Shown: positions 10,901-52,730 of the stretch, piece by piece
How the letters are laid out: the number at the start of each line of letters is the position of its first letter
Numbering within the stretch: the stretch's first letter is position 1
NCBI RefSeq assembly: GCF_031624495.1
Contig: NZ_JAMQOP010000002.1
Coordinates: forward strand, 558,001-622,000
Length of the DNA stretch: 64,000 nucleotides
Reading direction: 5' to 3'
Origin: Halogeometricum sp. S1BR25-6
Lineage (GTDB): Archaea > Halobacteriota > Halobacteria > Halobacteriales > Haloferacaceae
Made by a program: the position numbers and the translations under genes
The notes under the pieces: model-generated
Seen by the model: the letters and a program-made list of their open reading frames with translations, nothing else
The model's database searches: none
What the model was told of the DNA's origin: nothing

Positions 10901-11005
10901 ATGAACACAGATACAAGACACTCGGCGGCGTTCGACGGGTCGAAGTGCGCGCCGGTCGGGCGAACAGGGACGGGACAGCGAGGAGAGCGGGCGAGAGATG
11001 AGTGA
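10901..11005 (+). CDS. Short upstream ORF (34 codons) overlapping beta-helix gene start
   Basis: ATG at 10901 (MNTDTRHSAAFDGSKCAP...) runs to a TGA 8 nt inside the next gene (ATGAGTGA). No clear TATA-like box precedes it at the leaderless distance, so it may be chance. Confidence 0.25.
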   Translation: MNTDTRHSAAFDGSKCAPVGRTGTGQRGERARDE

Positions 11006-12434
11006 GGATACGGAGCGTCAAGAAGAGACCGAAGCGGACCCCGAAGAGGTCGGCGCGGAGGGAGAGCGGGACGAAGGAGACGAGACGGTAACGCGCCGTG
11101 AGACCATCGTGGCGACGGCCGCGGGAGTCGTCGGTACCGGGACGCTCGCGCTCTCGTATCTCTTCTCGGACGGAGACGACGACCCCGACACGGAGGCGCC
11201 GACGCCGATGTCCCCGACGCCGACCGAGGGCGACGGCGAACAGGTGCCCGAGGGGGAAGACATCCGGGACTACGGGGCGGCAATAGACGGACAGACCAAC
11301 GACGCCCCGGCCATCATGCGCGCGCTTCGGGCGGCCTCTCCCGGCGGGGTCGTCTACCTGCCGCCGGGCGATATCCTCCTCGACGCGCGGGACACCGACT
11401 CCAAGGCCATCCGACTCAACGCCTCGAACCGAAACGTCACGCTCCGGGGCGCCGGACCGGGGGCGGGAGAGACGCGACTGGTCATGGCTCCGGGTCACGA
11501 AGGCGTCCACAGCGCGGTGTACGTCGGCACGAATCCGGGCAACAGTGCCGGGACCGTCCGACTCGAACGTCTCACCATCGTCGGGAACAAGCGGAATCAG
11601 GGGGTCAACCCCGGTTTAGGCATCCGAACGGAGGCCGAGGGCACGCTGGTGATGCGCGACTGCCGCGTCACCTCGTGGCTGAACGCGGGCGTGAAACTGT
11701 CCGGCGGGATGGACGCCGACATCCAGTACTGCGAGTTCAGCAACAACGGACTGCGCGAGAACGGCGGCCACGACGTCTCCCCGAACCAGGACCGCCACCA
11801 GACGGAGACGGTCATCAGGCGGTGTCACTGCCACAACTCGGGCGGGGCGTCCGTCGACGTCGGACAGACCGAGGATATCGAACTGCAGACCGTCCTCATC
11901 GACGAGTGCATCCTGGAGAACAGCCTCGCGTCGCTGAAACTCTCGACGCAGAACAAGCTGACGACCGTCCGCCGGACGCAGATGCTGGGCGGCGACGCGA
12001 CGACGATACCGGTCAAAGTCAACCCGACCGACATCAGCATCGACGACCTTGTCCTCGAAGACGTGCTCATCGACGGCGGGGGGTGGCCGGCCATCGACCT
12101 GCCCTGTCCCGGCCGCCTGCGACTCGACAACGTCGCCATCATGAACGTCGACCAGAACAACCGGCAGCGCGGACAGGACAGAGGGGGAATCTTCACCCGC
12201 GACATCGACTTCCGCGACTCCGGCCGGGTCTCCATCCACAACGTCGGTCAGAACAACGAGAGCATCGCCCTCAACATCGAGGACGGCGGAGGCTCGATAG
12301 CGGAACTCGTCTACGGCAACGTCGCCGGCGTGGGCAAAAGCCAGGGCGTCAACCTGGAGAAGACCACCCGCGGCGAACCGCTGGAACCGGACGTCGTCGC
12401 TCGGAAGAACGTCGGGCCGCGGTCCGCCTCGTGA
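10998..12434 (+). CDS. Secreted or membrane-anchored parallel beta-helix protein (pectate-lyase-like fold), copy 1
   Basis: 478 residues. An acidic N region precedes TRRETIVATAAGVVGTGTLA, a Tat-like twin-Arg plus hydrophobic segment (about 32-55) without a clear cleavage site or lipobox, then a Pro/Thr/Asp linker. The body begins DIRDYGAAIDGQTNDAPAIM and VYLPPGDILL, the standard opening of right-handed beta-helix (pectin-lyase/Pel superfamily) proteins, followed by short repeated coils. No catalytic triad can be assigned. It is a paralogue of the next gene (GGHDVSPNQ, TTIPVKVNPTDISI, IDLPCPGRLRLDNVAI align). Likely acts on or binds an extracellular polysaccharide. Confidence 0.8.
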   Translation: MSEDTERQEETEADPEEVGAEGERDEGDETVTRRETIVATAAGVVGTGTLALSYLFSDGDDDPDTEAPTPMSPTPTEGDGEQVPEGEDIRDYGAAIDGQTNDAPAIMRALRAASPGGVVYLPPGDILLDARDTDSKAIRLNASNRNVTLRGAGPGAGETRLVMAPGHEGVHSAVYVGTNPGNSAGTVRLERLTIVGNKRNQGVNPGLGIRTEAEGTLVMRDCRVTSWLNAGVKLSGGMDADIQYCEFSNNGLRENGGHDVSPNQDRHQTETVIRRCHCHNSGGASVDVGQTEDIELQTVLIDECILENSLASLKLSTQNKLTTVRRTQMLGGDATTIPVKVNPTDISIDDLVLEDVLIDGGGWPAIDLPCPGRLRLDNVAIMNVDQNNRQRGQDRGGIFTRDIDFRDSGRVSIHNVGQNNESIALNIEDGGGSIAELVYGNVAGVGKSQGVNLEKTTRGEPLEPDVVARKNVGPRSAS

Positions 12435-12556: not shown

Positions 12557-12576
12557 ACATGTTCAGGATGACATGT
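12557..12576. promoter_or_regulatory. ACATGT-N8-ACATGT element
   Basis: Two palindromic ACATGT hexamers 8 bp apart, containing ATGT-N8-ACAT, the half-site layout described for PadR-family operators. It lies about 145 bp before the second beta-helix gene. Whether a PadR protein binds is untested; two PadR-like genes are near 52 kb. Confidence 0.35.
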
Positions 12577-12719
12577 GGGAAGAAGAGTTATTCACTGAAG
12601 AGGGAACTCGGAGGTATGGACGCAGAACGCGGCGCCACGGGGTGCCTCCAGACGAGAGCGAACGACCGGCGCGAAACCACCCGTCCGGCCGCGGAGCGGA
12701 CCAACTGAGAGTCATTATC

Positions 12720-14045
12720 ATGGTGAAGAAAGTTACAGACTTCGGTGCGGTCGGTGACGGATCGCGCGACGACACGGACGCCATACGGAACGCTGCGGAC
12801 GCCGCGGGGCCCGGCGGGACGGTCTACTTCCCGCCCGGAACGTACCTCGTCGGCTCCGACAGCCGAGTGCCCCTGGCGTACCCCGGCGACGGAAGTTGGG
12901 ACGACCTGACCTGGAAGGGCGCCGGCGCGGACGAGGTCACCATCAAGATGGCCGGCGGCCAGACGAAGGCGCACTTCGTCTTCCTGGTGAAGGGCTCGCA
13001 GTCCCCGCGGAACGTGACGTTCGACGGACTGGCCGTCGACGGCAACAAGGACCAGCAGTCGAACGACAGCGTCGGCCTGTGCGTTCTCACGGAGGCCGAA
13101 GGGTTGTTCAAGATGCACAACTGCCGGCTCATGAACGCGCAGAACGCGAACCTCAAACACTCCGGGCACATGGACTCGGAGATCACCTACTCGCACTTCC
13201 ACAACGCGGGCTACGTCTGGAACGGCGGCCACGGCATCTCTCCCAACCAGACCGCGAAGACGACGACCACTATCCGGAAGTGCCTGTTCACCGACCAGAA
13301 GGGCGCGGACGTCGACGTGGGGCACGCCAAGCCGAAAGACTGGCAGACCGTCCTCATCGAGAACTGCGTGATGCGGGACTCCTACCGGGGGAGTCTCAAG
13401 ATGACGCAGGAGAACGCGAAGACGACCATCCGCAACACAATCATGACGGGGAACTCCGACACCGAAATCCCGGTGAAGGCGAACCCCTCCGACGCGTCCA
13501 TCGGGACCGTCGCCCTCGAGAACTGCATCATCGACGGCGGGAAGTTCCCCGGCATCGACTTTCCCGTCCCCGGTCGCCTCGAACTGAACGAGGTCGCCAT
13601 CAAGAACGTCGGACGGGGCGGCCACCGCGACGGCGCGGGCATCTACACCGACCAGATGGACGTCGTCGGCGGTCGCATCTCCGTTCACGGCACCGATACG
13701 ATGGTCAACTTCACCGACAGCGCGAGCGGGTCCATCGACGAAATCATCCACGAGTCGGGCATCTCCCTGGGCCGCGACCGCGGCATCGTCGGGGCTACGA
13801 CCGTCGGCAGTCCGCTCGCACCGTCCGTCCCGAGCGAGTCTGAGGTGGGTCCCGGAGCGAGCGACGGCGCGGACCCGGGCACCTCGGAGCCGGCGCCGGC
13901 CGACCCCAAGACGTACGGCGGTTACAAGCTCCCCGAACCGGGCACCGTCGACTGGCACGTCCCGCTGAACGAGAACTTCGTCAAAATCGAAGACGACGTG
14001 CTCGAACTCCTCGCGCGGGTGCAGCAGCTCGAAGAACAGCACTGA
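12720..14045 (+). CDS. Parallel beta-helix protein (pectate-lyase-like fold), copy 2, with DWH tail
   Basis: 441 residues from the ATG at 12720, where MVKKVTDFGAVGDGSRDDTD gives the usual beta-helix opening. VYFPPGTYLVGS and repeated coils follow, aligned along their length with the preceding gene (GGHGISPNQ, EIPVKANPSDASI, IDFPVPGRLELNEVAI). Unlike copy 1 it has no signal sequence unless a start further upstream is used (the frame is open to 12573, basic). After a Pro/Ala/Gly linker it ends in GTVDWHVPLNENFVKIEDDV and a short coiled coil (LLARVQQLEEQ), a tail I associate with haloarchaeal surface proteins. Tandem duplication with later divergence is likely. Confidence 0.78.
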   Translation: MVKKVTDFGAVGDGSRDDTDAIRNAADAAGPGGTVYFPPGTYLVGSDSRVPLAYPGDGSWDDLTWKGAGADEVTIKMAGGQTKAHFVFLVKGSQSPRNVTFDGLAVDGNKDQQSNDSVGLCVLTEAEGLFKMHNCRLMNAQNANLKHSGHMDSEITYSHFHNAGYVWNGGHGISPNQTAKTTTTIRKCLFTDQKGADVDVGHAKPKDWQTVLIENCVMRDSYRGSLKMTQENAKTTIRNTIMTGNSDTEIPVKANPSDASIGTVALENCIIDGGKFPGIDFPVPGRLELNEVAIKNVGRGGHRDGAGIYTDQMDVVGGRISVHGTDTMVNFTDSASGSIDEIIHESGISLGRDRGIVGATTVGSPLAPSVPSESEVGPGASDGADPGTSEPAPADPKTYGGYKLPEPGTVDWHVPLNENFVKIEDDVLELLARVQQLEEQH

Positions 14046-14160: not shown

Positions 14161-15069
14161 CTACACCTTGTAGCCGAGGTCTTTGAGGTTCTGTTCGACC
14201 TCGGCCATGTCGATGGCGTCCGACTCAACCGGTGGGTCGGCTCTGATCGTCCGGCGCGGACCGTCGGCGACGACGTGCCACGGAACCGTCACCAGCTTGT
14301 CGGTGAAGATGCCCGGCGGGTGGCCGACCCAGCGGACCGGGAACGGCGTGAGTCGGTCGCCGAGCATCTCGCCGTGGTCCGAACTGATGACGGTCTTGCC
14401 GTCGAGTTCCTCGACGAGCGTCTGGACGTGTTCGAGGACGTACCGGAGGTTCGACCGGTAGGCCTCTCGGACGTCCTCGTAGCTCACGTCGCTCCCGCGG
14501 ACCGTCTCCCGGAGGCCGGTCCTGTCGAGTTCGAACGCGTCGTTGTCGGTGTCGAGGTACGGGTAGTGCGGCTGCATGTAGTGGATGAGGAGCCGCTTGT
14601 TCGGGTACTCGTCCTTCAGGTCGAGCACCGCACGGGTGACCGCTTCGGGACTGGGGACGAACCCGTCGGCGACGTCCCGTTCGACGTCGTGGTACGCGTG
14701 GAGTTCGCAGTTCAACTCGTCCTGTAGCTGGAGGTACCAGCGGTTCCCGGAGATGTACACCACGTCGTGGAGCCGCTTGTCCTTGAAGTTCCCGTGGACG
14801 AACTGCTTGCTCGCGCTGCCGCGGGACTGCCGCGTCTCGGGGGTGCCCGCGAACGGCGTCATCTCGGCGTAGGTGTCCGCCCGGCAGGCGTCGAGGAGGA
14901 TGAGGTTATCCCAGTCCTCCTCGAAGACGTCCGTCCCCCTCGTGTTGTACTGGCTGTCGCCCGTGTAATCGTAGTACGCTCGGTTGAGTCCGAGTCCGAC
15001 CAACCCGGGGTCCCGGAAGGCGCGGGTGAGCAGTTCCGGGTTCTCCCGGATGCGGTCCCAGAGTATCAT
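14161..15069 (-). CDS. Sulfatase/alkaline-phosphatase-superfamily hydrolase, short form 1
   Basis: 302 residues. WDNLILLDACRADTYAEM gives the first metal-binding Asp of the superfamily, SSDHGEMLGDR the distal Asp-His pair, and HYMQPHYPYLDTD a conserved central motif. The nucleophile position is probably in SRGSASKQFV, conserved with the next gene, and not a formylglycine Cys. Such short cytosolic or peripheral members may act as phosphodiesterases or phosphotransferases on glycans instead of sulfatases. The C terminus ends LKDLGYKV, like the other two in this region. Its ATG overlaps the stop of a 49-codon ORF (15066-15215). Confidence 0.82.
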   Translation of the reverse strand: MILWDRIRENPELLTRAFRDPGLVGLGLNRAYYDYTGDSQYNTRGTDVFEEDWDNLILLDACRADTYAEMTPFAGTPETRQSRGSASKQFVHGNFKDKRLHDVVYISGNRWYLQLQDELNCELHAYHDVERDVADGFVPSPEAVTRAVLDLKDEYPNKRLLIHYMQPHYPYLDTDNDAFELDRTGLRETVRGSDVSYEDVREAYRSNLRYVLEHVQTLVEELDGKTVISSDHGEMLGDRLTPFPVRWVGHPPGIFTDKLVTVPWHVVADGPRRTIRADPPVESDAIDMAEVEQNLKDLGYKV

Positions 15070-15215
15070 TGGCGGCTCCCGTCGGTCGGGGTTCGGCTCT
15101 CAATCGGTGCCGGCTCTCGAACGGCCGTCGGTGCCGTCGCCGCCGCGACCGGTTGTCCGCGAGTCACGTGGGAGGCGGCGACGAGCGAGCGTTCACGGGG
15201 AATGGAGAGCGCCAT
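15066..15215 (-). CDS. Short leaderless ORF (49 codons) coupled to sulfatase-fold gene
   Basis: ATG at 15215 (MALSIPRERSLVAASHV...) lies 27 nt after a TATA-like CTTTTAG (15239-15245, minus). The TGA overlaps the ATG of the sulfatase-fold gene as ATGA. Composition is Arg/Pro/Ala-rich. Probably a translated leader; a coding role is unproven. Confidence 0.4.
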   Translation of the reverse strand: MALSIPRERSLVAASHVTRGQPVAAATAPTAVREPAPIESRTPTDGSRQ

Positions 15216-15238
15216 GGTACGAAGAACCCTCCCGGCGC

Positions 15239-15245
15239 CTAAAAG
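15239..15245 (-). promoter_or_regulatory. TATA-like box for sulfatase-fold gene 1
   Basis: CTTTTAG on the minus strand, centre 27 nt before the ATG of the short ORF at 15215. Confidence 0.4.
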
Positions 15246-15351
15246 TATGGAGCCCCTCACCGGTCGGTGGCCGTCGCCACCGGTGCCGCATACATTTCTG
15301 TGAAACGATAGTTTCGCGGCCGGAGGCGATTGGATTCGGATTTGTACGCTC

Positions 15352-15361
15352 CATAACTATA
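15352..15361 (+). promoter_or_regulatory. TATA-like box for sulfatase-fold gene 2
   Basis: ATAACTATAT, about 30 nt before the ATG at 15390; leaderless start likely. With the minus-strand box at 15239-15245 this forms a divergent promoter pair. Confidence 0.5.
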
Positions 15362-15389
15362 TCCGCTATCCGTCGTACCCTGTAGCCAC

Positions 15390-16382
15390 ATGCACACCGA
15401 CATCCGAGCGTGGCTCAGAGAGTTCCCCTCGGAAGTCAAAGGCGGGAGCAGTCCGAAACAAGCCCTGTTGAAATCCCTCCGCGGTGCGTTCAACGGACCG
15501 TACTTCTCGCTCACGACTCGATATCCGCTCGGAACGAACATCTACGAACGGGAGTGGGACCTCCTCATCGTCCTCGACGCCTGTCGACTGGACGCCCTCC
15601 GCGCGGTGGCCCCCGAGTACGACTACATCGAACTGGTCAGTTCCATCTGGTCGGTCGGCAGCGCCTCCCACGAGTGGATCTGCAAGACGTTCACCAACGA
15701 GTACCGCTCGGAGATAGAGAACACGTCGCTCGTCACGACGAACCCGTTCGTCCCGCAGACGTTCGACGACCGCGTGTTCCCGCCGAAGGCGTACGCCGTC
15801 CCGTTCATGTGGGCGGACTGGGACGTCGTCGAGAAGTCGACGTTCCAGAACCTCCTGCAGATACACCGGCACGACTACGATGAGTACTTCACCGCGCCCC
15901 CGCCGGAGGTGGTCACCGACTACGCCATCCAGATGGCGCGCGAGGACCCCGCAGAGCGGATGGTGCTTCACTACTTCCAACCGCACACGCCGTACATCTC
16001 GGAGGCCCACCGCGAGAAACGGACGCTGACGCCGTTAGAAGACGACCCGTGGCGGGAGATGATGCAGGGACGGGCGACCAAGGAGGAAGCGTGGGAACTG
16101 TACATGGACAACCTGCGCTTCGTTCTCGACGACATCGAAAGGCTCCTACAGAATATCGACGCCAAGCGCGTCGTCATCACGGCCGACCACGGCGACCTGT
16201 TCGGCGAGATGGGCGGCTACGGCCACCCCGAAGGGTTCGTCCACCCCGACCTGAAGCGCGTCCCGTGGGCCCTCGCCACCGGCACCGACACCGGCGACGT
16301 CGTCCCGGACGTGGACACGGCCAGACAGACCGACGCGGACTACGACGTCCAGGAGCGATTAGAGAAACTCGGGTACCTGTAA
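15390..16382 (+). CDS. Sulfatase/alkaline-phosphatase-superfamily hydrolase, short form 2
   Basis: 330 residues, paralogous to the divergent gene at 14161-15069. REWDLLIVLDACRLDALRAV carries the first metal ligand, WSVGSASHEWICKTF the presumed nucleophile loop, LHYFQPHTPYISEAH the central motif, and VVITADHGDLFGEMGGYGHP the distal Asp-His site. The C terminus ends LEKLGYL. No signal peptide or membrane segment is seen, so it probably acts in the cytoplasm or at the membrane face. Substrate unknown; a role in phosphate- or sulfate-substituted glycan synthesis is inferred from the glycosyltransferases around it. Confidence 0.82.
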   Translation: MHTDIRAWLREFPSEVKGGSSPKQALLKSLRGAFNGPYFSLTTRYPLGTNIYEREWDLLIVLDACRLDALRAVAPEYDYIELVSSIWSVGSASHEWICKTFTNEYRSEIENTSLVTTNPFVPQTFDDRVFPPKAYAVPFMWADWDVVEKSTFQNLLQIHRHDYDEYFTAPPPEVVTDYAIQMAREDPAERMVLHYFQPHTPYISEAHREKRTLTPLEDDPWREMMQGRATKEEAWELYMDNLRFVLDDIERLLQNIDAKRVVITADHGDLFGEMGGYGHPEGFVHPDLKRVPWALATGTDTGDVVPDVDTARQTDADYDVQERLEKLGYL

Positions 16383-16745
16383 CCGACCCGCGTCCCACTC
16401 GTCTCTTCAGTTTCCTCCCGTTCGACCGGAGGGCAAAAGGCCACCGACTGAACCCGCCCGGAAGACAGCGGCGCGCTGCGACCGCTCAGCGTCGGCAGAG
16501 TTCCCCAGAACGAGTAGTGGAGGAGAACAGAGCCCAATCGACGCCGGGGCGGTCTCTCACCGAACTGAGAACGCGGAGCGGTGCGTCGTCGGAGCGTAAC
16601 TCGCCGGAACGGAGTCTCCCCGGTCGGCGGGAGTGCACCGGCGCCAGCGTTCGTCTGTATCCGTTCTGCGCCGGTACCGGCGCCGAGGACGGCGGCGATG
16701 GAATCGAGAGAAGAGAACGGCGCCCCCGCGTGACATCGAGCGGGG
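16383..16745. other. Convergent intergenic gap without a gene
   Basis: 363 bp between two converging sulfatase-fold genes. GC-rich, with no plausible haloarchaeal coding frame, no strong hairpin and no T-run that I could pick out. Confidence 0.5.
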
Positions 16746-18170
16746 TCAGTCCATCACGTAACCGAGGTCGGAGAGCTGTTTCTTCATCGCGTCCGACATC
16801 TCCCGCTGCTCGGCGTTTCGCTCGCCGCGGCCGAGTCGCTCGGAGAACGTCTCGAAGAACTCGCGGTGCTCGTCGGCGACGTCCGGGTTGTCGGCCGAGA
16901 CGTCGGTGTCCTCGTCGTCGAGGTTGTACAGTTCGTCGCCGCGGTCCCCGCGGAGCCACTTGTAGTCGTCGCTGCGGACGGCGTGAACCAGCCCCGATTG
17001 GAATCGGTCGAGGTCCGCGTCCGGGTTGTGCTTTCTGACCTGCTCGACGGCCGTCTCGTACGTCTCGTTGCCGCGTTGGCTGAGCGCGTACGTCCGCGTC
17101 TCCTCTCTCGGGTCGATTCCCTGCAGTTCCGACAGCGTCTCGTCGGACGCCCCGGCCTCCTCGAGGAGCATCTGCATCACGTCGATGTGCTGGACGAGAG
17201 CGTCCTCGGGGACGTCCGTGACGGACGGGAGGCCGTGGACGACGGTGGGCACGTTGACCAGCCCATCGTGCAGCGAGAACTGGTGGCCGATCACCCCGTG
17301 CTCGCCCAACAGGTCGCCGTGGTCGCCGGTGACGACGAAGACGGTCGGACCCATGTCGAGCGACTGGATGTGGTCGTAGAGGTCGCCCACCTGGTGGTCC
17401 GCGTAGGCGAGGACGCCGTCGTACATCGCGTCGATGGCCTCCTTCTCCGCGGGCGAGAAGTCACAGCCGTTGGCTATCTCGCGGTAGTAGTTCATGCTCC
17501 GGTCGAACGCGACGTCGGCGGCCTCCTCGGTGGACATCTCGATGTCGTCGGTGAAGGCGTCGCGGTACGGCAGCGGCGGGATGTACGGCAGGTGCGCACC
17601 CTGCGTGTGCACGAACATGAAGAACGGCTCGTCCGACCCGCCGTAGTCGCTGATGCGTCGTTTCGCCAACTCCGTGGCGATGAACTCGGGGCGGTGTCGG
17701 CTGGCGTCGGTCGTAAAGCCCGCGGAGTGCTTCCGGATGCCGAGGAGGTACTTCAGCAGTATCTTCGGCCCGGCGGTCTGCAGGAGGTTGGACTTGTCCA
17801 TCCAGGTGAAATCCTGAAAGCCGCGGTCGAGCCCCGTCGACTCGCTGCAGTAGGCGTTCTGCGAGAGGCCGACCGTCCGGTAGCCCAAGTCGGCGAACCG
17901 CTCCGGAATCGTCGTGATGCCCTCGGGCAGCACGTCGTTCCAGAGGCCGGTGCCGTGGTGGGAGGGGTACGTCCCCGTGAGGATGGAGGAGTCGGACGGG
18001 AGCGACCACATGGCGTGCGAGACGCAGTTGGTGAGCGCCCTGCTGGTAGGGCCGTCCGCGATGCGCCGCATGTTCGGCGTCGTGTCGCGGTGGTACCCCG
18101 CCAGCGAGGTCCGGTCCGCCCGGATGCTGTCCAGGTTCAGCCAGACGATGTTTGGGCGAGTGTTGGTCAT
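16746..18170 (-). CDS. Sulfatase-family hydrolase, long form
   Basis: 474 residues. PNIVWLNLDSIRADRTSLAG is the sulfatase N-terminal metal site, though the second Asp of the usual pair is Ser. MWSLPSDSSILTGTYPSHHG aligns with the nucleophile signature (C/S)-x-P-x-R, with Ser as candidate nucleophile but Asp in place of Arg, so a formylglycine-type sulfatase is doubtful. VFVVTGDHGDLLGEHGVIGH is the distal metal site. The C terminus ends LSDLGYVMD, shared in outline with the two short forms. No signal peptide. A TATA-like AAAATAAAG about 34 nt upstream fits near-leaderless transcription. Confidence 0.85.
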   Translation of the reverse strand: MTNTRPNIVWLNLDSIRADRTSLAGYHRDTTPNMRRIADGPTSRALTNCVSHAMWSLPSDSSILTGTYPSHHGTGLWNDVLPEGITTIPERFADLGYRTVGLSQNAYCSESTGLDRGFQDFTWMDKSNLLQTAGPKILLKYLLGIRKHSAGFTTDASRHRPEFIATELAKRRISDYGGSDEPFFMFVHTQGAHLPYIPPLPYRDAFTDDIEMSTEEAADVAFDRSMNYYREIANGCDFSPAEKEAIDAMYDGVLAYADHQVGDLYDHIQSLDMGPTVFVVTGDHGDLLGEHGVIGHQFSLHDGLVNVPTVVHGLPSVTDVPEDALVQHIDVMQMLLEEAGASDETLSELQGIDPREETRTYALSQRGNETYETAVEQVRKHNPDADLDRFQSGLVHAVRSDDYKWLRGDRGDELYNLDDEDTDVSADNPDVADEHREFFETFSERLGRGERNAEQREMSDAMKKQLSDLGYVMD

Positions 18171-18359: not shown

Positions 18360-20120
18360 TCACAGGTACGTGTCGAACCAGTACTCCAGCGACGTGATGT
18401 GGGCGATGACCGGCGAGAGGTTCTCCCCCCGCTGGTGGCGCGTCCAGAGGTCGGAGAGGTCGTCGGCGAACACGTCGCGTTCGGCCGCCTGCCGCAGGTG
18501 CGTCTCGGCCCAGTCGGCCAGGTCGGTGTCCATCCGGAGCCAGATGTCCGAGAGCTGTCCGTTTCCGTACGTCTGCTCCGACCGGAGTCGTCCGAGGCCC
18601 ACGTTAGCGACGAAGCCGAGGACGTGCGCCGGGTAGGGGTACTTCGGCGGCAGCTTCGTGCGCTCGTAGGTGATGTCGGCGAGTTCCGGCGCGACGCGCT
18701 TGGTCATCCCGAGTTTCGCCCGCGAGGTACCCATCGGAATCTTCGTCGTGAACGGGAACGTTCCCTTGCGGTACTTCGTCGGGATGCGCGCGCACCACTC
18801 CAGGAAGTCGCCGTCGGTGTAGACGACCCTGTCGCCGCCGACGTCGCGGATGATGGCGTTCGAGGCCATCGCACAGCGGTTGTAGTAGTTCTTGAAGTGG
18901 ATGTCCAACACCTTGTGGTGGAACGCGTTCTCGTCGCTCTCCTCGGCCTCGTGCCGGAACGTCTTGACGGGGTCGACGCTGACGGCGAGGCAGTCCTCGA
19001 CGAGGCCGATGTCGAGAGCGGCCTCGCTGGCAATCTGCGACTCGACCGCCGAGTTGTACTGGGTGAAGTGCGACTGGAGGAGGTGGTCGCCCAACAGCGA
19101 CCCCTCGACGCCCTCCATGAACACGCTGGAGTCTTCGATGTCGTAAGAGCCCGAGAGGTTCTTCGTGATGTGCCAGGCGACCATCCCGCCGCAGACGTCG
19201 ACGAGTCGCTCGATGCGCTCGGGCGACGGCAGCAGGTCCAACTCGGTGAGTTCCATGTCGAGGCGGTCGGCCACCTCGCGGGCGATTTCGATGTTGTCGC
19301 CCGTCGGCGGGTTCGCGTCGTACGTGTACGCCGACAGCGTCTCGAACTCGTGGTCCCCCGAGGCCGCCGACTTACACAGCGCGGAACTCGTGTTTCGGCT
19401 GTCCAGTCCGCCGGAGAGCCAGATGCTCGCCTCCGAGGGGAGCGTCGAGGCGGTCCGGTCGACGGCCGTCCTGAAGCGCGAGGCGAGTTCGTCGAGGTAC
19501 GCGCTTCCGGGTTCGGCCTCGTCGTACCGCGGCTTCCAGTAGCGCTCGCCGCGCCACTCGCCGTCCTCGAACTCGTACACCGTCGCGGGCCGGGCCGTCG
19601 ACACCTCGGAGACGAGCGTCCGCGTGCCCCAGAGCAGGCCCATCAACAGGAAGTCGGAGACGGCCTGTTCGTCTATCGTGGGGTCGTCGACGAACGGAAG
19701 GCACGCCGCGACCGACGTCGAGAACGCCGGTCGACCGTCTGCGAGGAAGCACGAACGCGCCCCCAGTTTGTCCGTGACGACGAGGAGGCGGTCCGCGTCG
19801 TCGTCGACGCCCACGAGGAGGAACGTGCCGTCGGTCCGTTCCGCGGCGGCCACGGGGTCTTCGAAGAAGTCGTCGACGAGTTCCTCGTCGTCCGTCTCGC
19901 GCCACTCGCGCGCGGTGACCGCGCCGTAGACGAACAGCGTCCGGTCGCCGTCGACGAGCGTTCGGACGCCCTTCGCGTCCGAGACGGGGAGGCGGGCGTA
20001 GATGGAGGTGGTCTCCCGCTCGGTCCGCGTTTCGGTTTCGTCGGCGACGCCGTGGACGGGGGTTTCGTCGGCCGCGTCCTCACAGTCCGCGAGCGAGGGG
20101 CTTCCAACCAATCCTGACAT
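18360..20120 (-). CDS. Asparagine-synthase-like amidotransferase/ligase lacking the glutaminase cysteine
   Basis: 586 residues. The C-terminal ATP-pyrophosphatase domain is clear from SIWLSGGLDSRNTSSAL (PP-loop SGGLDS, about 233-240) and VYTDGDFLEWCARIPTKYR. The N-terminal glutaminase-like domain starts MSGLVGSP, so the invariant Cys2 of class II amidotransferases is Ser here; glutamine hydrolysis is therefore unlikely and the protein may use ammonia or another amine, or form a different bond. Such proteins often occur in polysaccharide clusters. I start at 20120 because TATTTGAATA (20141-20150, minus) sits 26 nt upstream, giving a leaderless ATG. Confidence 0.83.
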   Translation of the reverse strand: MSGLVGSPSLADCEDAADETPVHGVADETETRTERETTSIYARLPVSDAKGVRTLVDGDRTLFVYGAVTAREWRETDDEELVDDFFEDPVAAAERTDGTFLLVGVDDDADRLLVVTDKLGARSCFLADGRPAFSTSVAACLPFVDDPTIDEQAVSDFLLMGLLWGTRTLVSEVSTARPATVYEFEDGEWRGERYWKPRYDEAEPGSAYLDELASRFRTAVDRTASTLPSEASIWLSGGLDSRNTSSALCKSAASGDHEFETLSAYTYDANPPTGDNIEIAREVADRLDMELTELDLLPSPERIERLVDVCGGMVAWHITKNLSGSYDIEDSSVFMEGVEGSLLGDHLLQSHFTQYNSAVESQIASEAALDIGLVEDCLAVSVDPVKTFRHEAEESDENAFHHKVLDIHFKNYYNRCAMASNAIIRDVGGDRVVYTDGDFLEWCARIPTKYRKGTFPFTTKIPMGTSRAKLGMTKRVAPELADITYERTKLPPKYPYPAHVLGFVANVGLGRLRSEQTYGNGQLSDIWLRMDTDLADWAETHLRQAAERDVFADDLSDLWTRHQRGENLSPVIAHITSLEYWFDTYL

Positions 20121-20140
20121 GTAGCGTACTTCAGTTATGT

Positions 20141-20150
20141 TATTCAAATA
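20141..20150 (-). promoter_or_regulatory. TATA-like box of asparagine-synthase-like gene
   Basis: TATTTGAATA on the minus strand, 26 nt before the ATG at 20120. Confidence 0.5.
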
Positions 20151-20323
20151 GTTACTCACCCGCTATCCGCCTGTCGCGCTCGAAGCGGGGGGAGAGAGGA
20201 CCCGTCACCGGGTCGGTTGCGGCGTCTCGCACGTCGGCCGCCACCAGTGCGCGCTCGGACGTGTCGTCGATTCGAGAGAATGGCCGCCCGCGGCGTCTCG
20301 TCCCGGCGTTCGTTCAGTAGGTG

Positions 20324-20361: not shown

Positions 20362-21546
20362 ATGACTCACAGCGTTCTGGCGAGCGCAGTCAACCATCCG
20401 GACGCCATCAATCCGTACATCGGACTGTTCAACCAGCGGATCGTCCAGTCGCTCATGCGGCGCGGGATGGACGTCGACGTCGTCTCACCGCGGCCGTTCG
20501 CGCCGCCCGTCGGTCCCCACTCGGAGTACTCGATGCTCCCCACCGTCGAGGAGTGGGACGGCTACGGCGTCCACCACCCGCGTTTCTTCTACCTGCTGCC
20601 GAAACGCCTGTTCTACGGGCGGGCCGGCGACTCCTTCGCCAAGCGCGTCCCGCGGTACGTCGAGAAGACGTTCGACGTCCCCGACGTCGTCCACGCCTGC
20701 CACATCTACCTCGACGGCTACGGCATGGTCGACTACTGCGAGCGACACGACGTCCCCCTGTTCGTCGTCTCGCACGGCCACTTCATGAACGAGTACGACG
20801 AGTTGGCCGACGACGTCCGCGAGAAGGTCGACGAGACGCTCGACGCCGCGGAGAAGGTGCTCTGCGTCAGCGACGCCCTCGCGGAGAAGGCCGCGCGGCG
20901 CGTCCCCCGTTCGAAAGTCGAAGTGGTCCCCATCGGGGCGACTCCCTCCCGGTACCCCGTCGAGCGGAAGGCGGAACTCCGCGAGGAACTCGGCATCGAC
21001 CCGGACGCGACGGTGGCGCTGTTCGTCGGGGAGTTCTCCGAGCGGAAGGGCATCCCCGAACTGGCCGACGTCCTCCCGGACCTCGACCTCCCGAACACCG
21101 AGTTCGTCTTCGTCGGGCACGGCGGCGACGAGGAGTGGACGCTCCGGCGCGCCCTCACGTCGAGTCGGTTCTCGGGCCGTCACGTGTACACCGGAATCAC
21201 CTCGCTGGCGCTGCGCCGGTGGCTGGCCGTCGCGGACGTGCTCGTCCTCCCCAGTCACGCCGAGGGGCGACCGACCGTCATCTACGAGGCGATGGCATCG
21301 GAGACGGCCGTGCTCTCGACGACCGTCGGGGGCATCCCCGAACAGGTCGAAGACGGCGAGACGGGCGTGTTGATCCCGCCGGGCGACACCGACGCGCTCC
21401 GCGAGGCGCTGACCGAATTGGCCGGCGACCGGGAGCGACTGTTGGAGATGGGACGGAAGGGACGCGAGCGCCTCCTCGAACAGGGGTGGACGTGGGACGA
21501 CCACGCCGAGCGAGTGTACCGACTCCACCGCGAGGCGCTGGAATGA
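20362..21546 (+). CDS. Glycosyltransferase family 4 (GT-B)
   Basis: 394 residues. The N-terminal half opens SVLASAVNHPDAINPYIGLF and includes DVVHACHIYLDGYG; the C-terminal nucleotide-sugar domain has ATVALFVGEFSERKGIPELA, EFVFVGHGGDEEW, LRRWLAVADVLVLPSHAEGR and EGRPTVIYEAMASETAVLST, the E-x7-E signature of retaining GT4 enzymes. Cytosolic or peripheral at the inner membrane face. It is the first gene of a two-gene operon: its TGA overlaps the ATG of the next glycosyltransferase (ATGA at 21543-21546). Confidence 0.9.
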   Translation: MTHSVLASAVNHPDAINPYIGLFNQRIVQSLMRRGMDVDVVSPRPFAPPVGPHSEYSMLPTVEEWDGYGVHHPRFFYLLPKRLFYGRAGDSFAKRVPRYVEKTFDVPDVVHACHIYLDGYGMVDYCERHDVPLFVVSHGHFMNEYDELADDVREKVDETLDAAEKVLCVSDALAEKAARRVPRSKVEVVPIGATPSRYPVERKAELREELGIDPDATVALFVGEFSERKGIPELADVLPDLDLPNTEFVFVGHGGDEEWTLRRALTSSRFSGRHVYTGITSLALRRWLAVADVLVLPSHAEGRPTVIYEAMASETAVLSTTVGGIPEQVEDGETGVLIPPGDTDALREALTELAGDRERLLEMGRKGRERLLEQGWTWDDHAERVYRLHREALE

Positions 21547-22646
21547 CCGACGCGCTCCGCATCGCGGCGGTGACCGCGCACCGCTCCCACGAGGTGGCCG
21601 AACCGCTGGCGTTAGCCGACGGGACGGTCGAACTCGTCGACATCGACGCCTCCGACGGCTTCCTCGAACGGAACCTGAACACGGTCACCCAACTGCTCGA
21701 ACTGACCAGCGATCCGAAACCGGACGCCGTGCTGTCGGACTGTCTCGGACTGCTCGGCTTCCTCATCGCCGCCATCTGCGTCCTCCGGGGCGTCCCGTTC
21801 GTCTTCCGCTTCAAAGGTAACCACTGGCAGGGGTTAGAGGAGATATACCGAACGGGACGGGACGACGGTCTCGCGACGAAGCTTCGGTACTACCTCACCT
21901 ACGCCCTCGACGAGGCTATCTACCGGTCGGCTCGCGGCTACGTCGTCGTTTCCGCGGAGTTGAAAGACGTCGTCGTCGAGCGAACCGGCTGTCGGCCGGA
22001 GCAGGTGCACGTCGTCCACGTCCCCCTCGTCCCCGACCGGGAAGACGGGTCGGCGCGGGCGGCCAGAGAGCGGTTCGGAATCGAGGAGGAGACGGTGCTC
22101 CTAACGGTGACGAACCTCAAGTATCCCAGCAAGTACGACGGCGTCCGCACCATCGTCGAGGGGATGGAGTCGGTGCTCGCCGACCACGACGACGTTGCCT
22201 ACGTCGTCGCCGGCGGGGGGTCCTACCTCGAAGACGTGCGCGCGGCGGTCGACGCCGTCGCCGACCCGGCCGTCCGCGACCGCATCTACGTGCTCGGCTT
22301 CGTGGAGGGCGTCGCGGACCTCTACGCCCTCGCGGACGCCTTCGTCTACGTCTCGCACATCGACGGCTATCCGCGGTCGGTGCTCGAAGCCCAGCAGTCC
22401 GCGCTTCCGGCGATGGTCAACGCCGCTCACGGGATGGTCGAACAGGTCGAGGACGGCGAGACCGGGGTCGTCTTGGAGGAGGCGACGTCCGAACAGGTGG
22501 CGGCGCAGGTGACGCGACTGCTGGACGACGGCGACCGCACGCGCCTCGGCGAGAACGCCCGGACGCGGGTCCGGGCCGAGAACGACCCGGAGACCATCGG
22601 TCACCAACTCGTTGCGGCCATCGACGCCATCGTCTCCGGTCGGTAG
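21543..22646 (+). CDS. Glycosyltransferase family 4-like (GT-B)
   Basis: 367 residues translated from the ATG overlapping the previous stop. The acceptor half has a hydrophobic LLGFLIAAICVLRGVPFVF stretch that may touch the membrane; the donor half shows TVLLTVTNLKYPSKYDGVRT, VAYVVAGGGSYLEDV, RIYVLGFVEGVADLYALADA and DGYPRSVLEAQQSALPAMVN, a slightly divergent E-x7-E motif. Together with the preceding gene it would add successive sugars to a common acceptor. Donor sugar unknown. Confidence 0.88.
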   Translation: MTDALRIAAVTAHRSHEVAEPLALADGTVELVDIDASDGFLERNLNTVTQLLELTSDPKPDAVLSDCLGLLGFLIAAICVLRGVPFVFRFKGNHWQGLEEIYRTGRDDGLATKLRYYLTYALDEAIYRSARGYVVVSAELKDVVVERTGCRPEQVHVVHVPLVPDREDGSARAARERFGIEEETVLLTVTNLKYPSKYDGVRTIVEGMESVLADHDDVAYVVAGGGSYLEDVRAAVDAVADPAVRDRIYVLGFVEGVADLYALADAFVYVSHIDGYPRSVLEAQQSALPAMVNAAHGMVEQVEDGETGVVLEEATSEQVAAQVTRLLDDGDRTRLGENARTRVRAENDPETIGHQLVAAIDAIVSGR

Positions 22647-52021: not shown

Positions 52022-52318
52022 ATGACAGACGACGTGTTCGAGTTGACGGGCTTTCAGCGAGACGTCCTCACCGTAATCGCGGGACTGGAGAAACCATCCG
52101 GCCAGACCGTCAAAGAGGAGATCGAAAAGGAGATCGACGAGGTGAACCACGGCCGTCTCTATCCGAACCTCGACGCACTCGTCGAGAACGGACTGGTGGA
52201 GAAGGGACAACTCGACCGGCGGACCAACTACTACGCGCTCTCGGAAACCGGTCGTGAGGCCCTCGAAAACCGCCGCCAGTGGGAGAACGAAACCGTCCCC
52301 GGTCTCACCGAGGACTGA
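52022..52318 (+). CDS. PadR-like winged-helix regulator, copy 1
   Basis: 98 residues. ELTGFQRDVLTVIAGLEKPS, GQTVKEEIEKEIDEVNHGRL and YPNLDALVENGLVEKGQLDR form the winged helix of PadR proteins (the GRLYPNLD stretch is the recognition helix), and RRTNYYALSETGREALENRR the wing and C-terminal helix. No large dimerisation domain, so it is a PadR subfamily 1-type minimal protein common in haloarchaea and their viruses. It has a TATA-like box about 30 nt before the ATG. A near-identical second copy begins 412 bp downstream. Confidence 0.87.
   Translation: MTDDVFELTGFQRDVLTVIAGLEKPSGQTVKEEIEKEIDEVNHGRLYPNLDALVENGLVEKGQLDRRTNYYALSETGREALENRRQWENETVPGLTED
52100..52275 (+). repeat. Direct repeat shared with 52512-52687 (PadR-like genes)
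   Basis: Offset 412 bp. Segments 52100-52164 and about 52179-52275 match the second copy exactly, with only about five differences in between, whereas the first 78 nt of the genes differ at about 17 sites. This is a mosaic expected from gene conversion. Confidence 0.75.
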
Positions 52319-52433: not shown

Positions 52434-52730
52434 ATGACGAACGAGATGTTCGAGTTGACCGGGTTCCAGCGGGACCTGCTGACGGTAATCGCGGGACTGG
52501 AGAAGCCGTCGGGCCAGACCGTCAAAGAGGAGATCGAAAAGGAGATCGACGAGGTGAACCACGGCCGTCTCTATCCAAACCTCGACGTGGTCGTCGAGAA
52601 CGGACTGGTGGAGAAGGGACAACTCGACCGGCGGACCAACTACTACGCGCTCTCGGAAACCGGTCGTGAGGCCCTCGAAAACCGCCGTCGGTGGGAGAAC
52701 GAAACCGTCCCGACGCTCGCCGACCAGTAG
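52434..52730 (+). CDS. PadR-like winged-helix regulator, copy 2
   Basis: 98 residues, same length as copy 1 with no indels. The middle and C-terminal parts are almost identical to copy 1 even at the nucleotide level, while the first 78 nt differ at about one site in five, mostly silent. The promoter is distinct: ATATATATG at 52402-52410 about 25 nt before the ATG, with ACTA-N6-TAGT (52385-52398) just upstream. Both copies could bind related operators, perhaps as heterodimers. Likely DNA-binding repressor; targets unknown. Confidence 0.87.
   Translation: MTNEMFELTGFQRDLLTVIAGLEKPSGQTVKEEIEKEIDEVNHGRLYPNLDVVVENGLVEKGQLDRRTNYYALSETGREALENRRRWENETVPTLADQ

Follow-up and report, generated by a model that had tools for sequence, protein, structure and literature searches.

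Three sulfatase-fold proteins with a shared C-terminal LGY tail in a haloarchaeal polysaccharide cluster: predicted glycan sulfotransferases

Three genes with a common C-terminal tail

The DNA analyzed here is a stretch of 64,000 nucleotides (the window) from Halogeometricum sp. S1BR25-6 (GCF_031624495.1, contig NZ_JAMQOP010000002.1, positions 558,001 to 622,000), in which three neighboring genes encode short form A (302 amino acids; positions 14161 to 15069 of the window, minus strand), short form B (330 amino acids; 15390 to 16382, plus strand) and long form C (474 amino acids; 16746 to 18170, minus strand). Each protein ends in an LxxLGY motif, referred to below as the LGY tail, and contains one Asp-His-Gly (DHG) metal site. 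We put at roughly two in three the probability that A, B and C act as glycan sulfotransferases in the cytoplasm, have a sulfatase/alkaline phosphatase fold, serve the secreted polysaccharide of the surrounding gene cluster and dock through their tail onto a partner in sulfate activation.

The C termini read LKDLGYKV in A, LEKLGYL in B and LSDLGYVMD in C, with the six-residue tails at residues 295 to 300 of A (14170 to 14187, minus strand), 324 to 329 of B (16359 to 16376, plus strand) and 466 to 471 of C (16758 to 16775, minus strand). The DHG sites comprise residues 231 to 233 of A (14371 to 14379, minus strand), 266 to 268 of B (16185 to 16193, plus strand) and 283 to 285 of C (17316 to 17324, minus strand). 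A first-pass annotation of the DNA had already described the three open reading frames (ORFs), their LxxLGY ends and the DHG site, all of which were found in place. It had also held that no export signal is present, and this stands: an in-frame stop 10 to 11 codons upstream of each ATG closes the ORF, so that no signal peptide was overlooked, and neither a signal peptide nor a multipass membrane domain was seen when the three sequences were inspected. C matches the Pfam family Sulfatase (PF00884) with 110.5 bits (E value of 1.3e-31); A and B, at 16.3 and 17.4 bits, stay below the cut-off of 25. For A, predicted to be a cytoplasmic sulfatase-fold sulfotransferase, no Pfam family exceeded its cut-off. 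A and B are 27% identical over 292 aligned columns (E value of 2e-27).

Active site and predicted fold

The formylglycine (FGly) motif C/S-x-P-x-R is absent from all three proteins, which have SRGSA (A), SVGSA (B) and SLPSD (C, residues 56 to 60) instead. The first-pass annotation was thus right in calling the nucleophile motifs atypical, and no FGly motif was seen elsewhere in A, B or C. Its choice of GSAS (A84 to A87 and B90 to B93) as the nucleophile motif of the short forms was ruled out, since a near-invariant Ser sits two residues earlier in the alignments; position 92 of B, the Ala of GSAS, varies across 106 short rows, and GSAS matches P-S-D-S of the long form. The candidate nucleophiles of the short forms are therefore Ser82 of A, in the context SRGSAS (14824 to 14826, minus strand; placed by alignment with B), and Ser88 of B (15651 to 15653, plus strand; alignment and predicted structure), both positions having been derived by arithmetic from the ORF. 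They align with Ser56 of C (18003 to 18005, minus strand; alignment and predicted structure), which occupies the FGly position, with S-L-P-S-D replacing C-x-P-x-R.

Conservation in the short forms was followed from the A-B alignment to 17 and then to 106 sequences. Of these 106, 104 have Ser and 2 have Thr in the column of B Ser88; among the 31 long relatives aligned, 25 have Thr and 6 have Ser in the column of C Ser56, and none has Arg at the last position of the FGly motif. Invariant or near-invariant in the short forms (B numbering) are D63, R66, D68, S88, N118, H194, P198, H199, Y238, D266, H267, H279, VPW291-293 and the tail; among the 106 rows, D63, D266 and H267 are present in 106, H199 and H279 in 105 and Y329 in 102.

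AlphaFold2 (AF2) models of B and C had a mean predicted local distance difference test score (pLDDT) of 93 and 91, respectively. Together with matches in the Protein Data Bank (PDB), these models point to an alkaline phosphatase superfamily fold for B and C, extended to A by its alignment with B. In this superfamily, the nucleophile usually sits between a strand and a helix; in the model of B, S88 lies between strand 82-87 and helix 93-100, and in that of C, helix 56-65 begins with S56. HMMER alignments pair S56 of C with the residue that opens the C/S-x-P/S-x-R stretch in 4upl and 7oz8 and, in the third alignment shown (4upi), with a residue written A there. Sulfatases, phosphonate monoester hydrolases and PbgA/YejM matched the model of C at Z scores of 31 to 37. 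The top PDB match of the B model was EptA (Z score of 15.0, root mean square deviation of 3.4, 212 aligned residues), tied with sulfatases at 14.4 and below. No canonical sulfotransferase of the type using 3'-phosphoadenosine 5'-phosphosulfate (PAPS) was among the fold-search matches listed for B and C, an absence that excludes nothing.

Characterized relatives and a proposed mechanism

The only experimentally characterized relatives that we found come from Halobacterium salinarum, in which two alkaline phosphatase superfamily proteins, Agl30 (VNG1056C, recovered in the membrane fraction) and Agl31 (VNG1057C, cytosolic), are reported to sulfate N-linked glycans: their deletion strips most of the glycan sulfate, and their expression in Haloferax volcanii confers glycan sulfation (PMC11980604). 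One is described there as membrane associated and without an InterPro family and the other as a soluble member of the arylsulfatase family. The reverse cloning primers of that study, with the frame set by the StrepII tag, translate to HLEDLGYL for VNG1056C and LEELGYT for VNG1057C. Agl30 and Agl31 thus resemble A, B and C in superfamily, in their location in a glycan cluster and, as read from the primers, in the LGY tail; they differ in that they act on an N-linked tetrasaccharide and are encoded in an aglB cluster (PMC11980604), whereas the cluster around A, B and C is one for a polysaccharide. The primer pattern of Agl30 and Agl31 was found in 0 of 392 genomes. A likeness in sulfation role extends to Agl7 of H. 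volcanii, reported to contribute to the sulfation of a lipid-linked hexose (PMC3871713).

That the short forms have a transmembrane helix was considered and rejected: of the 106 short rows, 95 had sufficient length for scoring, and none of these reached a 19-residue mean hydropathy of at least 1.6 in the N-terminal part, while 5 reached 1.0. By analogy with the membrane fraction in which Agl30 was found (PMC11980604), a membrane-skimming N terminus of the short forms is possible.

Sulfotransfer is, in our assessment, the most likely activity of A, B and C, given their conservation, predicted fold, synteny and tail and the analogy with Agl30 and Agl31, and we favor it over phosphotransfer because these two members of the same superfamily, with the same tail, are reported to sulfate glycans. 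The first-pass annotation had suggested phosphodiesterases or phosphotransferases acting on glycan precursors; the glycan substrate and the cytoplasmic location are probably correct, while the chemistry probably is not, Agl30 and Agl31 being described as adding sulfate. Its further suggestion, that the tail may dock onto a common partner, is plausible.

In sulfatases, the FGly hydrate attacks the sulfate, after which its second hydroxyl expels sulfate and completes hydrolysis, and a Cys-to-Ser exchange leaves the sulfo-enzyme trapped. Given adenosine 5'-phosphosulfate (APS) or PAPS, an enzyme that has Ser/Thr by nature would thus form a sulfo-enzyme that is open to a sugar hydroxyl. We propose that the Asp of strand beta-1 (A60, B63, C14), the nucleophile and the Asp-His pair (A231-232, B266-267, C283-284) together hold a divalent metal, which would activate the Ser hydroxyl (A82, B88, C56). 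This Ser would take the sulfuryl group from APS or PAPS to give a covalent sulfo-enzyme, which a sugar hydroxyl would then discharge to yield the sulfated glycan, with Ser or Thr instead of FGly favoring transfer over hydrolysis. Meanwhile, the flexible linker and the LxxLGY helix may hold the enzyme to a sulfate-activation partner; such docking is proposed since the same ending is found on CysD-like proteins and some APS kinases.

Distribution of the tail

In 78 named contig loci (by record title, 76 haloarchaeal, 1 Heimdallarchaeota and 1 Thermoplasmata), taken together with the window and locus L172, an LxxLGY or LxxMGY tail within 3 residues of the end was present in 80 of 87 coding-like sulfatase-fold ORFs versus 5 of 1,628 other coding-like ORFs, and the tail is thus shared far beyond chance. 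By reading and Pfam, the five others are three ribbon-helix-helix (RHH)-like and two alkaline phosphatase-like proteins. A second census covered 170 nonredundant long rows, which were taken from near short-form genes, from the top Pfam hits or by hand, with the nucleophile called by alignment column; with 9 truncated rows and 1 with His at that column set aside, the tail was present in 99 of 105 Ser/Thr rows and in 0 of 55 FGly-type Cys rows. Among the 6 Ser/Thr rows without a tail, that of L104 seems to be frameshifted, with the tail on the next ORF. LGY is kept in orthologues and is near universal in the Ser/Thr class of haloarchaeal sulfatase-fold proteins. On a tree of the remaining 160 rows, we counted one change of nucleophile class, four tail changes and one independent pair, and this single pair rules out treating tail and Ser/Thr class as independently associated.

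Across the whole genomes of S1BR25-6 (G000) and two others (G131 and G011), 30 ORFs of at least 60 amino acids ended in the tail: 25 of the alkaline phosphatase superfamily, 3 CysD-like, 1 APS kinase and 1 Arg-rich ORF that is probably spurious. G000 contributed 14 (11 of the superfamily, 2 CysD-like and the Arg-rich ORF), G131 contributed 12 (11 and 1 CysD-like), and G011 contributed 4 (3 and the APS kinase). The patterns allowed one or two residues after the Tyr in G000 and one in G131 and G011; C, with three, falls outside them. Sulfatase-fold proteins were recognized by our own hidden Markov models or PF00884, the APS kinase by PF01583, phosphodiesterase-like proteins by Pfam in G000 and by reading the sequence in G131, and CysD-like proteins by PF01507 plus subthreshold NCBIfam CysD matches in G000 and, again, by reading in G131. 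The tail, shared by A, B and C as the first-pass annotation had seen, is accordingly not special to them. In the one literature search aimed at the tail, among open-access PMC papers, no report tying LGY to a sulfatase-like protein or sulfotransferase was found; in PMC11980604, no mention of the tail was seen, and LGY never appears as a separate word.

Small RHH-like proteins with an LGY tail were seen at L057:4268-4600, L081:3912-4301, L086:4720-5331, L111:5210-5539, L068:16099-16320 and L102:5070-5315. The first matches RHH_1 just under the cut-off, those of L068 and L102 match no family, and those of L081, L086 and L111 were assigned by reading. They are possibly a part or a regulator of a sulfation machinery.

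Sulfate activation and the sulfate donor

All complete CysD-like copies that we collected (31 in one set and 19 in another, a partial ORF in L283, a truncated one among the 20 regions of the second set and some short or other-frame ORFs having been left out) end in LRDLGYM or LRELGYM. CysD has a PP-loop fold and an unrelated chemistry, so that only the C terminus (RLRDLGYM in haloarchaeal CysD-like proteins) is common to it and A, B and C. Two CysD-like proteins on Desulfolutivibrio plasmids end in LRCLGYL and LRALGYM, and the plasmid-borne CysDs of Skermanella and Sinorhizobium end in RLRSSGYL and KKKREGYF; judging from these four bacterial sequences, CysD proteins in general may end in Gly-Tyr followed by one residue, an ending to which that of the predicted sulfotransferases is similar. 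In G000, two tandem CysD-like proteins, 58% identical, lie at G000:C1:1147283-1149354 (L262:9284-11358); no CysN was seen by inspection of their 19-kb neighborhood, no genome-wide search having been made.

Among 117 haloarchaeal genomes of the order, a CysD-like protein was present in 112 and an APS kinase (PF01583, E value of 1e-10 or better) in 6, G000 not being one of them; relatives of B were found in 167 when 195 genomes of the order were searched (E value of 1e-6 or better). From these counts, most haloarchaea may use APS directly. A wider idea, that an archaeal sulfation complex uses LxxLGY as its dedicated docking tag and so places sulfotransferases where activated sulfate is made, with most haloarchaea possibly sulfating glycans from APS without PAPS, is tentative and, on balance, rather unlikely to hold in full. 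We lowered its odds slightly because, at an E value of 0.001, G000 itself yields one partial APS kinase match (21.5 bits versus a cut-off of 21.1; model positions 2 to 54 of 152), and an H. volcanii control matches the model at 0.001, though not at 1e-10. APS is nonetheless a serious candidate donor, and a divergent or unrecognized APS kinase or other PAPS-making enzyme is possible.

Three glycan clusters combine sulfate-activation genes with tail bearers, the glycosyltransferases being assigned by reading only. L102 contains an RHH-like protein and a CysD-like protein, both with the tail, a phosphodiesterase, glycosyltransferases and a short form without an LGY ending; L123 contains two short forms, glycosyltransferases, a phosphodiesterase-like protein with the tail and another tail-bearing APS kinase, above the TIGR00455 cut-off; and L324 contains two Ser/Thr sulfatase-fold proteins and an APS kinase, all with the tail. 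An ORF at L324:8294-9172 resembles a canonical sulfotransferase, with a PKSGTN motif as in PAPS sulfotransferases, and ends in LTELGYVQDSSW.

The surrounding cluster and the spread of relatives

A, B and C lie in a polysaccharide synthesis cluster (5079 to 32675) that is partly syntenic with plasmid pHH400 of Haloarcula hispanica. It encodes an FG-GAP protein, a Gfo/Idh oxidoreductase, a carbohydrate-binding module (CBM), a family 2 glycosyltransferase (GT2), two beta-helix proteins, an asparagine synthase-like protein and family 4 glycosyltransferases (GT4s) and, further, a 610-amino-acid protein without a Pfam match, a DUF1616 protein, a GT2, a heparinase II/III, a GT4 and a flippase. No ORF for an oligosaccharyltransferase of the WWD[YWH]G type was found in the window. 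The pHH400 orthologs of A (HAH_RS18110), B (HAH_RS18100) and C (HAH_RS18095) are 64%, 65% and 60% identical, respectively, and C and B are convergent neighbors on both replicons. Also matched on pHH400 were a GT2, two GT4s, another glycosyltransferase, a heparinase/alginate lyase-like protein, the flippase, the DUF1616 protein, the 610-amino-acid protein and the FG-GAP protein; none of the 18 pHH400 genes used in the comparison matched the Gfo/Idh protein, the asparagine synthase-like protein or the glycosyltransferase at 21543 to 22646.

The asparagine synthase-like protein of the cluster (18360 to 20159) matches PF00733 weakly. Adjoining A, B and C are two related, pectate lyase-like beta-helix proteins (10998 to 12434 and 12573 to 14045), 48% and 39% identical to a GH28-related protein of pHH400. 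Elsewhere in the window, two adjacent ORFs of 98 amino acids (52022 to 52318 and 52434 to 52730) share 87 of 98 residues, as after a recent duplication.

Relatives of B sometimes occur in tandem, with up to 14 match rows per genome (one gene may give more than one row). A plasmid search with B returned 47 records; the 40 listed are all haloarchaeal, 35 of them annotated as "hypothetical protein" and 2 as "LTA synthase family protein." B-type members also occur in one Heimdallarchaeota and one Thermoplasmata metagenome-assembled genome (among the best 80 of 200 matches). Contigs of a viral collection gave 14 loci with relatives when queried with the short-form alignment A2 and none when queried with B alone, L006 or L003; phages gave no match to one viral-contig relative used as the query, and the long-form alignment had no stretch conserved enough for a viral-contig search. 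Tail-less short-form members exist among the viral-collection contigs: the relatives in L129, L130, L131, L135 and L137 stop close to the VPW motif and have neither the linker nor the tail.

Weighing the alternatives

In favor of sulfotransfer, sulfate is reported to make up 26% of the weight of the H. hispanica exopolysaccharide (EPS) (PMC5467301), and sulfated glucuronic acid has been proposed for it (PMC9091367); the genes shown to make it are chromosomal, and its sulfate therefore supports a role of the pHH400 cluster by analogy only and is no proof for it. Several observations count against sulfotransfer. According to PMC11980604, basal sulfation is left in the Agl30/Agl31 double mutant, and no role in N-glycan sulfation is given as found for a third such protein, VNG1063H, whose primer translates to KELGYIE in one of three frames. 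The link of A, B and C to Agl30 and Agl31 rests on description and tail, and these two proteins function with tags behind the tail, so that a free tail end is not needed. Six of the seven APS kinase copies in the 117 genomes lack the tail (the copy in L297 has it), and the CysD-like proteins, putative sulfate activators, match the NCBIfam CysD models below the cut-off. The association of tail and Ser/Thr class is one evolutionary split, and the contrast between 99 of 105 and 0 of 55 is therefore not replicated evidence. As to the models, with EptA and sulfatases tied for B, the predicted fold alone does not tell sulfate from phosphate chemistry. Finally, type I phosphodiesterase-like and small RHH-like proteins bear the tail without a known sulfation role and are not explained by docking unless they belong to the same complex.

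The likeliest of the alternatives concerns the tail only and is compatible with any role of the enzymes: LGY may be unrelated to sulfation and act as an intramolecular cap or as a general stability or degradation tag. This is a sizable possibility, if short of probable. In the model of C, a tail helix (residues 460 to 468; pLDDT of about 83) follows a low-confidence linker (about 55), which is compatible with packing on its own domain, and both the RHH-like and phosphodiesterase-like bearers and the tolerance of Agl30 and Agl31 for tags behind the tail (PMC11980604) fit such a role. A cap, however, gives no reason for CysD to carry it too, and the tail is borne by unrelated folds; in the three genomes, the bearers outside the alkaline phosphatase superfamily are CysD-like proteins or an APS kinase, bar the spurious-looking ORF.

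Alternatively, A, B and C might be Ser-nucleophile phosphodiesterases or phosphotransferases of the LtaS/EptA/OpgB kind, which put phospho-alcohol groups on glycan precursors or take them off, a reading that we consider improbable. EptA and LtaS use a Ser/Thr nucleophile and one Asp-His metal site, both of which are present in A, B and C as placed by alignment and predicted secondary structure. EptA is, moreover, the top match of the B model, and the two plasmid relatives annotated as LTA synthase family proteins point the same way. EptA/MCR phosphoethanolamine transferases and LtaS share the fold of A, B and C, but they act outside the membrane, being membrane anchored with an extracytoplasmic catalytic domain, whereas A, B and C have no export signal and no N-terminal membrane domain of this type. 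Nor is the EptA match better than a tie with sulfatases, the tails recur on CysD-like proteins and an APS kinase, and the characterized haloarchaeal relatives Agl30 and Agl31 are reported to sulfate (PMC11980604). Very unlikely, finally, are sulfatases that hydrolyze sulfate esters in polysaccharide turnover with an unusual, unmodified Ser: the Pfam match of C, its Z scores to sulfatases and the public annotation as sulfatase all speak for them, and FGly-dependent sulfatases (PF00884) do share the fold, but A, B and C are cytoplasmic and lack the C/S-x-P-x-R motif and a signal peptide, Ser/Thr is conserved across the aligned relatives (106 of 106 short, 31 of 31 long), none of the 55 FGly-type rows has the tail, and the same genome keeps separate FGly-type paralogs (L002 and L003), both tail-less.

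Implications

If A, B and C are sulfotransferases, many tail-bearing haloarchaeal proteins now labeled "sulfatase" or "hypothetical" would add sulfate rather than remove it, and the label would be inverted across the family. The tail would then offer a simple sequence test for reannotation and for a search for partners. For archaea without a clear APS kinase, this raises the question of which sulfate donor is used, and that question can be tested.

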